Source of the DNA: Rhabditophanes sp. KR3021
Lineage: Eukaryota; Nematoda; Chromadorea; Rhabditida; Alloionematidae
NCBI GenBank assembly: GCA_963281155.1
Contig: CAUJLY010000002.1
Location: forward strand, 3,286,001 to 3,350,000
DNA length: 64,000 bases
Reading direction: 5' to 3'
The notes under the pieces are model-generated. The model was not told the origin of the DNA, ran no database searches, and worked only from the letters and a program-made list of their open reading frames with translations. This document shows, piece after piece, positions 3,901-14,708 of the stretch. The translations under genes were made by a program, and so were the position numbers. The stretch's first letter is position 1. Every line of letters starts with the position of its first letter.

Positions 3901-5665
3901 TTAACGAAATTAATCCACAATTGTTCAAATGAGTTAGTATCGAAAATTTCAAAACCAGCGATATCTAATACGCCGATGTAGTTTTTTGATTCATCTAAAT
4001 TTGTGGACAAAGTTTCATTGCAGCGTTTGATTAGCCATGAAAACATTCTAGCGTAGATTCCTTTAGCCAACCCTTGAACTGACCAATCAGCTGAACAAAT
4101 AAATTAAATTTCGAGAACTCATGTGAATCTTACCTTGTTGCATGGTCTGTCCCTTTATGACTAATTCAGTTCCAACACGGATTTTTGGACTCAATATGCT
4201 TTGAATTAATTTTTCTCCATTAATAGAGAAAAGTTTGCAAACATTATCAATTGGCATCATTGAATCAACTTCCGCTTGTTCTTCGCGAGGTTTTTGTTTA
4301 AATTTTAATTGTGACATGTGCATGATAGACGCACATAAACGATAGATATCATTGCGTTCAAGAGCAGTAAAACCCATCACCGAAAAAGCATCCTAAACAA
4401 AATTATTCATATGTAATTTTTATATCTGAATATTATATTTATATCATTTTATATCACAATTTACCATATCACATTTGTTTACCTATTTTGATTTTAAACA
4501 AAAAGCCTCTTTGAAACAAGTTAATAATGTGTCATCGAATACTCTACTAAATATTTTTTATCGCCAAGGACAAACAACTTTTCAAAGTCTCTCATTAACT
4601 TACTGAAGTTATCTTAAGCTCATCTGAATCATTCATTCCCGGTACAGTGACTTCGGCCATAGACACAAAATGGTAATCTTTGATGTCATTAGATAGCAGC
4701 AACTCTTTACGCAATTTTTTGCTTGACATGATCTGATAGAAAATGTGAAAACTACGTTCACCTGGTCCTTGATTAATTATTCTACTTTTTTCAAGCAAGT
4801 CTAAAAGATAATTAAAATGAAGGTGTAAAAATAATGAACACAAACAAACAACTTACAATGTTCAATATCTCCACCAACAAGTTTACCTTGTGAGTCAAAA
4901 TGAATTCTAATGAACTTTCCGAAACGGGATGAATTGTTGTTACGGACAGTTTTGGCATTTCCTAAAGCTTCTAGTACTGGATTAGCTTGTACAACCTTAT
5001 CTTCAAGACTTCCACCTGGTGGGAAATCGCTAAAAGAAACCGATTTTTTTAATTCGTTTTGTTTTCCATCATTTTTAGCGCCGATTTTGGCAAAATAAGA
5101 AATTACTTTCTTCGTGTTTTCTGTTTTTCCGGCCCCAGATTCTCCAGTAATAAGCATGGATTGATTTTGCTTGTCAGCTATCATGTTGCGATACGCCTCA
5201 TCAGAAACAGCAAATAAATGGGGAGGTACTTCATTACGACGTTGATTCACGTACATGTTGATAACGGATTCAGTATAAATTGGCAACATTTTGTATGGAT
5301 TGATGAAAACACAAAAAAGCCCAGAATATGTCTAAATTGTTTCTTAATTTATTCCCAATTAAACCAAACTTACGTAAATCATCATAGATTTGTATCTTTG
5401 GTAGAGATTATGAAGGACAGAAGCTTCATTAAGTATAGACAAATTTGACATATCTTCGGCTTTTTCAAACTTCGCTGGATTAATTTCTTGACACTGGTCT
5501 TTCGTTGTCTTTTTGGTTGAACCATTAGGTAACTTTACAGTTAATGTCGAACCTTCTGCCACTATTATTTCCCCAATTACAAATCCGTCAGCTGGGTCAG
5601 GGATCCACGTATGGGACTTGTTGTCAAATTTTCTTGTCGCCTGTTCTTTCAATGCATCGTCAGGC
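937..5665 (-). CDS. Myosin II heavy chain with a truncated rod (first exon not found)
   Basis: Actin-based motor heavy chain of conventional (muscle-type) myosin II. Mapped exons, all in consistent phase: 5374-5665, 4857-5331, 4604-4800, 4134-4392, 3743-4090, 3497-3669, 937-2886, giving about 1230 residues. A small 5' exon with the start is missing because the first mapped exon begins in phase 2. Seen: N-terminal SH3-like region, P-loop [13 protein letters not shown], switch 1 [13 protein letters not shown], switch 2 DIAGFEIF, the SH1 helix region [18 protein letters not shown], and the lever ending in [14 protein letters not shown]. The coiled coil then runs only about 385 residues, through the part matching S2, and ends in a proline-containing tail with KPPLPKY before the stop. 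Ordinary heavy chains have about 1930-2000 residues, so light meromyosin is absent. The next gene (atg4) lies 108 bp beyond on the opposite strand, leaving no room for more rod exons. Confidence 0.93.
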
Positions 5666-6169: not shown

Positions 6170-8703
6170 TAAATGTTTGTTGTTTGACTTGCATTTGGCG
6201 GAGATATGGCCATCCGGGATCCATTAGCCATTCTAATTGAACAACCATGTTATTAGATGTGTGGTTGAAACCTGAAATTAAATATCCGTAAAATTAAATC
6301 ACGTCAGAGAAGTAAGTAATTATTTGATCAAAATGTGATTTCCGACATTTGAATATTCAATATTGTATCAAGACCTTTCCTCACAATTATAATATCAAAA
6401 GATCTTGAACGTAAAGTTTTGGAAAACAAACTACCTCTTATCTCAATTATTAGTATATGTGATTTATGAAATGACAAAGTAAATACAAACCAGCTGTATA
6501 GTTTCAATCAAAATGGTTCAGCACCTATATTTATGAGCAAATTTAAACAAAAAGGGATATAGATGAGGGATCTAATAAGAAGCAAGATAAAAAGTCTGTA
6601 CAAAAGATCAAAACTTTCTTCTAGGCGATGACTTTAAGTTACAGCGTAGGCAGGTTTTGTATATACATCTATTTGCAAAACTTTGTCTTCTTCGAGTCAA
6701 AACACTGTTAATCGGTTCTGCATTCAGATATAGTAAAGGGATGTCTATACATCTTCTTCAACCAAACACAAGAACCTTTCGGACTAAAACTACTTTATCA
6801 CTTCTTTTTGACAGAAATTAATGTATATACAATATATTTATCTCGTAATATCAAACGGCTTCAGTTTTCCTCTAATACAGTGGGTGGAGTTCGTAGAATA
6901 ACTACCCTACAGATAAAAGATGAGTGCAGCTAATGTAAGCAAACTTTAATGATCACAAACATCCTTTTTATGTTTAGATGTCAAATTTAATTGTTTCTTA
7001 GTAAAAGACACGGTGTGAGGTAAAGACTTTTGCGCTTTCATCTACCTGGAGATGTGTATCCTATAGTACTATGAATTACTATTTATTCAAATCAGTATAT
7101 GTGATATAGAGATGTATGAGATGCAAAGTGAAAATATGAGGTGCTATATGTATGTATAAAATGGCTTTTCATATCCAACACGATAATACGATATTTAATT
7201 CTTAAAACACGCAAATACCTGTATCACCATCAAATAAATACTTTATCACAAACAGACAAATGCTCTTTCATAAGCTAATAAATACTCGCCATGGCTCATT
7301 GATATGTGCTTTTTGTCATAATAATTTACCTTCCTAATATCTATAATTTTGAACATTATTCAACTTCAAGATATCTCCGCGCAAAGAGACCGAAAGTCTT
7401 TTTGATCGAAAGGTTAACGTAAAATTATTCAACGAACAATCATTTAACATAAGGCTTTTGATACAACCTAACAATTTTATATTAAAAGTCACGACGTTAT
7501 TTTTGAGGGATATTAAGCATTTTATTTTGTACAAAATTGTAAACAATAAAGAGTAATGACATCTTCTTACAATCACCAAATCATCTTTAATCGAATTTTT
7601 TAAAGTGCACTTACACAACAATAATATTTAACGGTATTTAATGATATTCAATAATATTTGATAATATTCCTCCGCAGCAATTTTTTGTGTAATATATGCT
7701 AATATATCAGTCTTTTACCGCATCAATACAATATTTGCAAAACAAAGTTTCTCAAGTGTTGATGTAACTGTATAAAATATTATTTTTGAATATCATAAAT
7801 AGAGTCGGAATGTCAAACACAATATAAGTATGTGCTTTGATAATCATTTAAATTTGAAAGATGGTATTTGATCATCTATTACACCATTTTGTATTCCTTT
7901 TAATTAAATAAGTTATTTTCTTATTTATAAATTTGTTTCAAATAAAATAATATTTTTGAAGAGAATGTGCATTATTTTAAATTATTATCTTTACAATTTT
8001 CTGTTGAAATATCAAATGTTTCCCTCAATTTGCCATTTGTTCAAAATTGAGATGTCTAAATATCCCTTTCCTAATGACTTTTTATAAGAAGGACATTATT
8101 ATGCATCCTCAATTATCCTAACAATTTTAAGCTCGATTACTTTCCATCAAATCAAAGTATGACTCAAGTTACATTTCTCACTAACTTTTATTACATAATC
8201 GTAAAATGCTAAGATGTCACACTTAACTTTTGCACCTATAAACTATCAACTTTAAACTATTCAAAATATATTTATAATTTTCTACGGAGAACGATTCATT
8301 AGTATTATTATTCGGAAATTCATAAAACAACGATTCATTAGTATTATTATTCGGAAGTTTATAAAATAACGATTCATTAATATTATTATTCGGAAATTTA
8401 TAAAAAAAACAATTAATTAATGTGTATTATCATTTGAAAATTTATAAAATAAAGCAATGCAATATTGTGTATTGCTAATTAAATGAAATTATCTGAAAAT
8501 TTATTAGTTTGTTTAAATTGACACAAATTGTTTGTCAACATTTGGATACTCTAATAATATTAAATATGCAAATTACATACTTGCAACCACAGAAAATACA
8601 AAATACATGTTGGCAAGAAAGATATTAATAAACTTATAGTAATTTTTGATAAATTCTGATAAAGTTTGAATAACTTTGTATTCAATACAGATCTTACACG
8701 CAA
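6170..8703. other. Intergenic, no supported gene
   Basis: About 2.5 kb of AT-rich sequence between the small gene and the 3' end of eyes absent. Only short chance reading frames (for example 7334-7621, minus) are present. The missing first exon of myosin may lie here but I could not identify it. A 39-bp tandem repeat is at 8291-8450. Confidence 0.6.
8291..8450. repeat. 39-bp tandem repeat, three close copies plus a degenerate fourth
   Basis: Units start at 8291, 8330 and 8369, each beginning acgattcatt and containing attattattcgga. A fourth, diverged copy runs to about 8450. It lies about 250 bp beyond the eya stop codon. Confidence 0.85.
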
Positions 8704-11700
8704 TTATAACAAAAATTGTGTCAATGCAATATGAAAAGCTTCAATATTGGCAAGTTCTGCGATTTTCCAAATCGGAATGTTTTCTTTTTTTGATAATTCA
8801 AGGGTACTTTCATTAGAGGAAACCATAAAGAAGCTTTGCTTCTTCCCAAACTTGGTAACTATTCGATCTATAGCTGCATCTTTGGTCGTTTTTCCGATAC
8901 TGTAAACATTTTCAATAGGAACGAAATTTGCAATATTTATGAGAAGCATCTTTGCCAGACTATTAGACAAAGTATCAGATGTAATTACTATGTTTGTAAA
9001 ATGACCTCCGGGATTTTCAGAAATTGCCTTTAAACAAACTCTTATTCTTTCGATCCAATTATTTGCACCAGGGTTACAGTTTTGCAATATGTCACAGATT
9101 TCTTTGCTTCTCATATGCATTCCATTATTATTTTCGACTATATCGTCAAAGTTATTCTTATACTGATTATATACCTCCTTGATGTGTTGGTAACGGGCAG
9201 ACAACTTTCTCACCCATTCTACTCCATTTCTCGAGGCATTACTTGAGAGAGGAGTTGATGTTGTTTGGTTGGCAGAATCATTTGACTGATACCCAAGATC
9301 TTGAATGGTTTCGTCATAGTTAGTATCTTCGATATTCATTTGATCACAATCTTCGGCATGTTCAATTCGGAAAGCAGAATTTACTATTTGATTCATGGTT
9401 GATTGAATAGACAAACAACCGGCTGCATTATTTTCTCTTGCAAATCTGGACAAGCAGAATATGTCCTATGATAACAATAAGTTAGTAAAATATATTCATA
9501 ATAATCTTTCAAGTATTATGCTGATAAGCGCATTTTGTGCAAATTAATTAATAAACTTACATCAAGCTCCCATATGAATATACGGGTATAATTTACTTCT
9601 TGACAATTACCTCCGCCAGATCCCTTCTTTTTCTTCGAAACTTTATTTTTCTTTGATTCAGCAGAACTACTGTTTGACTTCAATGATGCAGTGAAAGGAC
9701 TTATCTGCCCACTACTGTTAGGTGTCATCGACCCATTCATGGCAACAGCAACAGCCGCATTGTCCATCATAGCTGATGTGAGACCAGCATAACTTGTCAA
9801 TGATGTAGGTGAAACAGAATTTAGATTAGCAGTATTATAATAAGGATTTCTTGAATTATAATATTGAGCCTGAACTCCCGCAGCAGCACTTGCATAGCTA
9901 CCATAATTCAAGGGGTTTGTATACGTTCCTGCTACGGGGTAATACGATTGTCCATTTGGCATAAAATAGTTGGGGAATGGCGCTGTTGAAGTAAGGTTAG
10001 ATGAGGAGACTGTATTATAAGCAGCATTGAATGTAGAGTTGTAATTATTGTATGCTGCTGCATTCGAATAAGAAGAATTATAATATGACTGAGGGTTTAA
10101 CATCCTCGAATCATATCCATTCACGGCATCCTGCATACTCATCAAAGTATTGGATGATTGTGATGTAGAAATAAGAGGCATTGTGAGGCTATTTAAATTA
10201 TCACCTTCACTTTTAATTAATCCAGAGTTTAGAGTAAGGGACGTCGGATCTAAAACACTCCACACACCGGATGTTGCTAGATTGTTTGTTGTCAAAGTTT
10301 GGTTAGTACTAAAAGTCATATAAAGTTAGCCTTATAAAAATAATTTAATGGCCTTAATCTAAGGCGTGTGCAAAAGCATTAAAAGTTTAGCTAAGTAAAG
10401 TGGCTTAACATATATCATAGTGACTCAAGTATTTCACAATTACTTAAACATTATGGTAATATTGCACTTGACAAATACTTGATATAGCAACAGATATAGT
10501 TGGCTAATTCTTACCTATTATTTGTGTCCACGGTCGAGCAAAAGTTTGAAGTTGAGGATTTGTTCTAAAAAATAAAAAGTAAATGATTTGCATTTTATGT
10601 AAAGCTAAAAGTATATACTATGCATGAAGCAGGTGTCGAACAGTTAACAAAAATTTCAACGTTACTAATCCTGTATAATTGGGTGGCGAGAATAGTGAGG
10701 AAGAAGCGGCGAGCATAAGAAAACATCTTGATCCGCTAATCCATTGCCTTTTATAAATGTTATTAAATGGTACGCTAATGTTAGTTAAATAAAATGGTTT
10801 TTATATAATCTACAATAAGCTTAATATCTATCACTGGTACCAACCCCTTTTTGTTCTTTTACTAAACGAAATCATAACGGTGCTCATATTTACAGATGTT
10901 GTGAGTTTTAAGTTTGTTTGATTAAGACTCAGGGACATATGCCAAAACAGCGAAATGAAAGAACCATTAGCTTCTGGGTTTGTTTGTTCAAGAAAATGGT
11001 AAAAGCACTTACATTAATGCATGCGCCTGCACGTATGTAGTACGTAAAATAATAATTGAGGCAAGACGGTTTCAACATTTCTCATTTTACAATTTATTTT
11101 GCCCTAAAATAGTCAGTCCTACTTGTGCCTTTCTTTAATAAATATCGAAAATAGTCAGCCCTATTTCAGTTACGCTTACTAAATTGGGGTCAGATCAAAT
11201 TTCTTTTTAAAAGAAATACGCAATCAAAAAATACGCATTAACATAATTAGTTGTTTTGAAAGTTATGTCATTTTAATTGAAATTGTAAAGTAAAAGAACA
11301 AGAATATAGAGACAAGTAATTAACATGATAATTATTTGTTACGCAACTATGTGGGAAGCTATTGGGAAACAATTTTTGGTGATAATCGGAAGGATGCAAA
11401 GAAATCTGTTCATACATATGCTAAAGTCACATTTAATTGCCAACAAAAAAAGTAATTGTTGGTGTTTAAGGACTCACATTTTTTAAATTAAGGTACTGTG
11501 ACAAAGTTTCGTGCTGTGTTTGGCCAACACTTTCAGTGCCAACAAAAACAACAACTACTAATATGAACAAATATTTGGATAGCTAATGTTAGCGTGTAAA
11601 GAGCAATTTACACTGTTATGAGTGGACATTTTACAGGTAAAGGTTGAGTGGGGACATATATAAAATAACCTACTAAGATAATTAATAAAATAATGTGATA

Positions 11701-12867: not shown

Positions 12868-14708
12868 TTAAAAGGCACAATGTAAAAAGCGCTTACTATA
12901 TTCGTAAGAAACAAATAACGCTCCACTAGCGACAAAGGTACGTATTAAAGTGGGAGTGAGTCCGCGATAAAAAATTTTCAACCCTCCTTGGTGATAGACT
13001 TCTTTAAATGTTCCAATAAATGTTTTTTTACTGTTTGTTTCAGTCTGCATTTTACTCTTAACTAAATGAATTGCATCAAACAATCTAAAGTCTTGAGATT
13101 ACCTGTATCAAACGGAAAAATAAAGCTCCAAAGAATTACCCCAGAAATTGACCCTGAAAGTGCTGTATAACATAACCCGATGTCATCTTTGGTTATTTGG
13201 CCGTTTCTAGTAAAGATGTTGCGTGTCCATTCGTATGAGTAGAAGAATGCAGCATATCCTCTGCAAAATCGAGTACTGATTAAATGTTTGATTAGCAACT
13301 TACGGTACTTCTCTGAAACCTAAAGAATTATAAATTGGAACCAAATATTGGACTTACAAGTAGCAAGGAGTCCATCGAAGAAACCTTTGAAACCTTGGTT
13401 TCTCCAAATATCAAGGCAAATTCTAGAGGCTGAAATGTTACTGCGAGGATTAATTTCTTTTTGTGTTTGAAGTTTGCATTTGATTAATTCAGTAGGACCT
13501 AAATAACACACATATTATAATTCTACTTTAATATATATATATAAATAGGCGAATAAAAAATACCGACACAAAACAAGGGCAGCAAAAACGCTAGCCATTC
13601 CACCACCCAATGAACATTGTAATGGATTTAATTCCGAAGGATCTTTTTTGTTTAGTACTTTGCAAACCAATTTTTGCATGGATCCATACGCTAAAATAAT
13701 TGATAAATTAGTTTATATTGAAGATATACTTACCACAAAAAAGAACTGCATTCTCAGCTATAAAAATTAATTATATTGCGCAATGAAAGGTGTATTATGG
13801 CATATTTTATGTTTATAGCACCGAAGGTTCTAGTCTATGCTATGTTTTGATCATAATGCGACATATATTATAAATAAAAGTGGATAATTCGAATGATTAC
13901 AATTTTACCAAAAAATATTTATCAACTTTGGTACAGTCAACAGACTTGCAAAAGTATTAATCACTTCTTCTGTTTAAATACTTCTTAAAAATTTTGAAAT
14001 ATTTCTAGAAAGCCACCCATTGCTTTGGAGATTATTTGTACTTGATAAAGATAATCTATTAATTATATAAGTCATAACTAATTGTAATACCTTTATTAAT
14101 AGAATAAGGTAGCGGCAATGGATGCGAAGTTGTGAATATTTGTAAAAAATTATCTTCTCCGATAATTGAATGCTCACACCTCCTCCCTTCGTCTAAAAAG
14201 TGAAACCGCATAACTATGATAGAAACCAATTAGGATATGTAGTTTTAAGAAGATAAAAACAAGCCGGGCAAAGGCACTACTATTTGATGAACAAATTAAT
14301 AGTGTGTTATAATCAAAACATAGTCAGAGTGTGTTTTAGGCTCTATAAATGCAAATACCCACGACACACCTTTCGGTACGCAATAATAATACCTATATTA
14401 GAAGCAAGACTAGGAACTGTTCCGGCATAGAGACCCTTCACACCTCCAGTTGTAAAAGTTTTGCTTAGACAAGTTACCCAATTATTGTTGTAAACATGTG
14501 CAAAAGTTTGCATCTAAAATTTTAAGAGTTGATACAAGTTGGTTATGTGGGTAAAGTTAGTGAGCGATGGCTTTCTATGTGAACTCACTTTTACTTTGAC
14601 CACGTCTAATGGATTTCCCGAAAGAACATTGGCTATTCCTCCAGCTGAGCCTGCCAACAGATCTATAACGCCATCTTTGAAGTGGTTATCTTTTTTATAA
14701 CCAGCCAT
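12868..14708 (-). CDS. slc25a15: Mitochondrial ornithine/basic amino acid carrier (SLC25A15-like)
   Basis: Inner-membrane carrier of the SLC25 family, predicted to exchange ornithine and citrulline. Exons: 14589-14708, 14393-14513, 13734-13757, 13568-13690, 13358-13498, 13304-13319, 13103-13260, 12868-13061; all phases agree and give 298 residues (the human protein has about 300). Three carrier signatures are visible: PLDVVKVK, PTELIKCK and PFDTVKSK (the last formed across a splice). Blocks such as FREVPGYAAFFYSYE and LTPTLIR fit the ornithine subfamily. Exon 6 is a 16-nt microexon. The exon 4 donor is an unusual gtcggt, needed to keep the CPTEL reading. A 3' splice acceptor lies 9 nt before the start. 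The upstream SENP gene on the same strand ends 208 bp away. Confidence 0.92.

Follow-up and report, generated by a model that had tools for sequence, protein, structure and literature searches.

The gene for Eyes absent (EYA) of the nematode Rhabditophanes sp. KR3021 (family Alloionematidae, in the superfamily that includes Strongyloides) was analyzed in a 64,000-nucleotide stretch of contig CAUJLY010000002.1 (the window), part of a 44.8-Mb genome in six contigs. The sole EYA gene found in this genome encodes a likely inactive phosphatase that likely acts as a SIX-bound co-activator, a reading to which we assign a probability of roughly 0.77. In Rhabditophanes, and in all 26 nematode versions that could be read, EYA lacks amino acids required for phosphatase catalysis; its one remaining role is therefore likely that of a helper to the SIX gene-control proteins. 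Residues are numbered in the 506-residue spliced product, identical letter for letter to UniRef A0AC35UAX0 (P0002; "Eyes absent homolog", Rhabditophanes sp. KR3021), which was annotated separately, perhaps on the same assembly. Literature is cited by PubMed Central (PMC) number.

In motif I (DxDxT/V) of haloacid dehalogenase (HAD) phosphatases the first Asp is the nucleophile and the second the general acid/base, and the acids of motif IV coordinate Mg (PMC8069645). The corresponding positions in the window are as follows, with counts from the protein set described below.

9567..9569, minus strand: GAG, Glu251, nucleophile position (Asp in 137/137 non-nematode EYAs; fly D493; EYA2 D274)
9561..9563, minus strand: GAT, Asp253, general acid/base position, kept (EYA2 D276)
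9460..9462, minus strand: ATA, Ile255, motif I Thr position (EYA2 T278)
8974..8976, minus strand: GAT, Asp417, two residues past the motif II Thr (Thr in 137/137 non-nematodes, Asp/Glu in 26/26 nematodes)
8890..8892, minus strand: AAA, Lys445, the motif III region Lys (present in 26/26 nematodes and 136/137 others)
8815..8817, minus strand: TCT, Ser470, motif IV Asp position, GDG replaced by SSN (EYA2 D502)
8803..8805, minus strand: ACC, Thr474, motif IV Glu position (fly E728; EYA2 E506)
8725..8727, minus strand: GCA, Ala500, last helix, kept (equivalent of EYA2 Ala532)

Motif I reads WELDDI and departs from DxDxT. Motif IV reads VSSNEST and departs from GDGxxE; its VSSNES was aligned without gaps to IGDGVE of EYA2 by phmmer. 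The Thr of motif II is kept (T415). EYA2 numbers follow from where the structural alignment begins and ends, from the ungapped alignment of motif IV and from counting, and fly equivalents from counting along P0005. The first-pass annotation had read WELDDI, with Glu for the nucleophile, and VSSNES for GDG. Both readings were borne out: the Glu codon is the GAG at 9569-9567, and the alignment placed no Asp at the nucleophile (E251 against D274) or the GDG position (S470 against D502). Beyond that annotation, D253 is kept, the motif I Thr is replaced by I255 and the motif IV Glu by T474. Having lost four of the five catalytic residues, Rhabditophanes EYA is probably inactive as a phosphatase; with neither motif IV nor the nucleophile, it would not be expected to carry out Mg-dependent phosphoryl transfer.

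A protein search with nematode C-terminal probes gave 46 proteins (28 nematode, 18 vertebrate), with neither C. elegans nor any enoplean nematode among them. The 138 other EYAs comprised these 18 vertebrate proteins, mostly EYA3, and the best 120 of 4,730 matches to a fly probe, nine of which were metagenome proteins taken as non-nematode; the non-nematode set therefore leans to insects and vertebrates. Rows were counted for 26 of the 28 nematode EYAs and 137 of the 138 others. Two nematode gene-model fragments that lack motif I, P0147 and P0167, were dropped (motif IV of P0147 is also non-GDG), as was P0110, an Anopheles model in which GDG is kept and the stretch with motif I is skipped. P0145 and P0148 are without part of the C-terminus. 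The nematodes sampled were eight Caenorhabditis, Auanema, Mesorhabditis, Pristionchus, Diploscapter and strongylids, which we take to be clade V; Toxocara, Anisakis, Gnathostoma and Syphacia, presumably clade III; and Rhabditophanes and Strongyloides, presumably clade IV.

DxDxT was present in 0/26 nematode EYAs and 137/137 others in the alignment, the GDG Asp of motif IV in 0/25 and 137/137, and the motif IV Glu in 0/25 and 136/137 (one Asp). Seven nematode proteins keep none of the five catalytic residues, 15 keep one and four keep two, against five in all 137 others (the one Asp counted as kept). The nucleophile position is occupied by Glu in 13 nematodes, Asp in 12 and Asn in one (n=26). 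Motif II has T/S in 17/26 and C in 9/26, and the motif III Lys is present in 26/26. Strongyloides venezuelensis EYA has WELEDI and ISANGA, and the eight Caenorhabditis species have W[DN][LI][DE]D[IV] without GDG. Both catalytic Asp positions are replaced in Toxocara, Anisakis and Gnathostoma (WEMEDV/I; among P0139, P0144, P0146 and P0140) and in Syphacia (WEIGDL). On the sequences, the common denominator is loss of the motif I Thr (26/26) and of motif IV (25/25), not the Asp-to-Glu change.

Loss of the nucleophile and motif IV, as first annotated, was thus upheld by sequence but not as an event in one species, since the same class of loss is common to all 26 readable nematode EYAs; this class of loss therefore looks like an old nematode trait. 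The Glu at the nucleophile, the title feature of that annotation, is real in Rhabditophanes but does not define the loss. Rhabditophanes and S. venezuelensis share WEL[DE]DI and a non-GDG motif IV, as a recent loss private to Rhabditophanes or the Strongyloidoidea would predict. The motifs are also missing from the other 24 readable nematodes, which belong to clades III and V; this refutes such a loss for the sampled nematodes and leaves it with very little probability. In a tree calculated without the motif columns (25 nematodes and 11 others), the nematodes fell on one side of a branch with a bootstrap of 100 and a Shimodaira-Hasegawa-like approximate likelihood ratio (SH-aLRT) of 100, at a point where long branches meet. 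Equivalents of D502 and E506 are absent from every nematode with those columns, so one stem loss suffices, and the D/E/N states of the nucleophile need four changes on the tree. A single loss of catalysis would have taken place on the stem leading to the sampled nematodes, and motif I would then have drifted between Asp and Glu.

Exon 2 alone matched the solved EYA2 chain with E=2.8e-31 (phmmer), and residues 245-501 of P0002 aligned to chain residues 4-269 with E=9.5e-32. The two long open frames and the exon-2 match indicate that the EYA assignment is not due to chance. P0002 scored 76.2 bits (E=3.5e-21) against TIGR01658 (NCBIfam EYA-cons_domain), below the curated cut-off of 195.3 bits; six nematode EYAs scanned scored 59-93 bits, whereas the fly and Aplysia controls scored 406 and 382 bits. 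Neither the exon pieces nor P0002 matched Pfam, whereas the fly control matched HAD hydrolase. The EYA-type fold, a HAD core with a large helical cap, was present in the predicted structure, and model residues 245-506 aligned structurally to EYA2 268-538. The HAD core is predicted to fold as in EYA2, including the last helix of the SIX groove. A second, intact EYA gene was not found in the Rhabditophanes genome by an exon-by-exon search, a design that a very divergent copy could escape; other protein matches had E of 0.06 or worse.

EYA2 A532 is taken here to be a SIX1-groove residue in the last helix. Ala occupies this position in 24/25 nematodes (A500 in Rhabditophanes) and 137/137 others. 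The Rhabditophanes genome holds three SIX genes, which by signature residues we assume to be of SIX1/2 type (L015), SIX3/6 type (L014) and SIX4/5 type (L016), and a Dachshund-like gene (L066). In the SIX1-EYA2 contact the first SIX-domain helix is received by EYA2 (PMC10361970), and the nematode EYA domain likely still receives this helix. In C. elegans, the SIX protein CEH-34 is a direct binding partner of EYA-1, and eya-1 expression needs ceh-34 (PMC8989417). Catalytically dead Eya is enough for flies to form eyes and survive (PMC3595212). The folded EYA domain would hold a SIX1/2-type protein and the Tyr-rich N-terminal region would activate transcription, which may be why the gene was kept. 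Sequence and predicted fold thus support the first-pass idea of separated co-activator and phosphatase roles, with its scope widened from Rhabditophanes alone to nematodes; loss of activity with retained SIX co-activation is what we infer.

Several observations weigh against this reading. A532, with its presumed role in the groove, is the only SIX-interface residue mapped. The nucleophile Asp is retained in 12/26 nematodes, and both motif I Asp in four (two Pristionchus, Auanema and Caenorhabditis bovis). Of the 113 columns that show no variation outside nematodes, seven are catalytic, and these were kept about as badly as the 106 others (Mann-Whitney p=0.33), and near-total loss did not differ between the two groups (Fisher p=1), indicating that the whole nematode EYA domain diverged fast. 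Dead fly Eya performs worse at half dose of so or dac (PMC5673202), so that catalytic loss can cost robustness. A weaker motif IV is reported for choanoflagellate EYAs and for one fungus of the five compared (PMC8069645), and motif IV loss as such therefore has precedents. Specific erosion of the active site was also considered and found unsupported, the catalytic columns being no worse kept than the other invariant ones.

What does hold is re-fixation, defined as a single class of replacement in 90% or more of the nematodes and scored over the 106 columns that do not vary in other animals' EYAs of the set and have enough nematode data. It was found in 6/11 motif columns against 5/95 others (Fisher p=1e-4), with test and motif set picked after the alignment was seen and counts inflated by shared nematode ancestry. 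The direction was the same in all 24 variants, in which the threshold, the motif set and the thinning (down to 13 rows) were changed (p 7e-6 to 0.059), the narrow catalytic-residue set giving the weak end (p 0.0087 to 0.059). The most striking re-fixed column is that two residues past the motif II Thr, Asp/Glu in every nematode and Thr in every other protein, and we conjecture a salt bridge between this acid and the conserved Lys. The enrichment, its stable direction and the invariant acid and Lys (26/26 each) speak for a nematode ancestor that refitted the active site as a non-hydrolytic pocket, in a domain that does more than hold SIX; examples are a reader of phosphopeptides or ligands, or a latch within the protein that joins Lys to Asp/Glu and locks core and cap. 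On this view the ancestor would first have turned its only EYA, a Mg-dependent tyrosine phosphatase, into a pseudoenzyme. A new pocket would then have become fixed, built from Asp-Ile (motif I), the Asp/Glu that follows motif II and would face the invariant Lys, and Ser/Thr (motif IV); its new, non-hydrolytic use might be, for instance, that of a latch or phospho-reader by which the SIX complex is controlled. The post hoc choice of test and columns, the shared ancestry and the conjectural acid-Lys contact count against such a pocket, and we hold it as a tentative possibility.

That some catalysis persists, residual or altered, through a Glu nucleophile or despite the missing acids of motif IV, could be argued from the acidic nucleophile position in 25/26 nematodes, the second Asp of Rhabditophanes and the kept motif III region Lys. 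It is improbable, given that 0/25 nematodes retain the Asp or the Glu of motif IV, that this motif supplies the acids which coordinate Mg (PMC8069645) and that changing the nucleophile Asp to Asn inactivates EYA2 (PMC3335822). Read most simply, the data point to a nematode ancestor in which phosphatase activity disappeared long ago and the co-activator was retained.

The C-terminal tyrosine of H2AX is a known EYA substrate (PMC3335822), and C. elegans is without H2AX (PMC11422256). An H2AX tail (SQ-acidic-aromatic) was seen in 0/14 distinct H2A-like frames examined in the Rhabditophanes genome; these came from 47 places chosen among 77 histone-fold matches, and only those places were read, so an H2AX copy could have been missed. 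The absent tail is a possible reason for the lost EYA phosphatase, as a correlation rather than a demonstrated cause. An H2A variant at L051 (G000:C1:7215200-7216200) has the tail NSQESNAD, with an SQ motif and without the terminal aromatic of H2AX. The fly also has an unusual H2A variant.

The EYA gene lies on the minus strand at 10319-8704, with two exons separated by a 95-bp intron.

9561..10319 (or from 10308), minus strand: exon with a Tyr/Ser/Asn-rich N-terminal region (putative transactivation) and the first EYA-domain beta strand with the motif I start FIWELD; residues 1-253, identical to P0002
9466..9560, minus strand: 95-bp intron within motif I, donor GTAAGT, acceptor ATCATAG; splice matches the deposited protein
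8704..9465, minus strand: exon with the remaining EYA domain through the stop codon; matches EYA2 chains (E=2.8e-31)
10515..10564, minus strand: possible extra 50-bp coding exon, flanked by TTTTTTAG and GTAAGA; it shares the reading frame of the exon as read from 10308

Coordinates, strand and the 9561/9465 splice were correct as first annotated, the translation being identical to the separately annotated A0AC35UAX0. The nucleophile position had been numbered 280; the Glu stands, but it is E251 in 506-residue numbering, and 280 presupposes further upstream exons. A possible splice acceptor, TTTTAG (ends 10309), overlaps the annotated start Met, and the true N-terminus may therefore be longer. 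An intron inside motif I is where a wrong splice could create a false motif; a gene-model error or decaying pseudogene is nevertheless extremely unlikely, as the nucleophile codon is exonic, the frame is intact, the deposited model is identical and other species have the same motif class. An alternative splice restoring DxDxT was rejected: the GAG codon lies inside the exon, so no acceptor change can yield Asp, and intron read-through hits a stop. A 39-bp unit in about four copies (window 8290-8449) lies directly 3' of the EYA stop codon. Elsewhere in the window, 4801-5331 (minus strand) is a myosin motor-domain exon (Pfam Myosin_head E=3.7e-69), and open frames at 13062-13514 (minus strand) resemble a mitochondrial carrier, of which an 85-residue piece tested had no Pfam match.

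The importance of EYA phosphatase activity for development has been disputed since fly rescue experiments gave opposite answers. If the present reading is true, an animal lineage exists without EYA catalytic residues and, here, with SIX and Dachshund-like genes, so that the co-activator role can persist alone; the nematode loss would partly answer the dispute by evolution. Nematodes would likely represent a natural separation of two jobs combined in the EYA of other animals. Their EYAs run counter to the figure of a 2021 review in which both motif I Asp are completely conserved in the compared animal, plant and fungal EYAs (PMC8069645). Caution also follows for Caenorhabditis, a model for EYA in DNA repair, which may have no EYA phosphatase; Rhabditophanes frames without an H2AX tail and C. 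elegans without H2AX (PMC11422256) accord with this. A figure title in the same paper refers to active-site conservation of C. elegans EYA-1.

No prior statement of catalytic loss in nematode EYAs was found in the accessible part of the open-access literature; the original C. elegans papers, outside that search, may mention it. The first description of C. elegans EYA-1 is reportedly that of Furuya in 2005. Nematode EYA would be an orthologue lineage turned pseudophosphatase. C. elegans EYA-1 is likewise a single nematode EYA and binds CEH-34 (PMC8989417); the motifs of its genus were read in eight congeners. Canonical EYAs (fly Eya, vertebrate EYA1-4) have DxDxT and GDGxxE, both lost in Rhabditophanes. 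D493 and E728 are the residues changed to obtain dead Drosophila Eya (PMC3595212), and the same two positions engineered as D493N and E728Q are altered in Rhabditophanes, to Glu and Thr. The fly mutants change only those residues, whereas the Rhabditophanes changes are natural and fixed, with further losses in a domain that diverges fast throughout. Inactive myotubularin-related pseudophosphatases likewise use a phosphatase fold without catalytic residues as a binding module; they sit beside active relatives, whereas in Rhabditophanes the only EYA found is the one without the residues.
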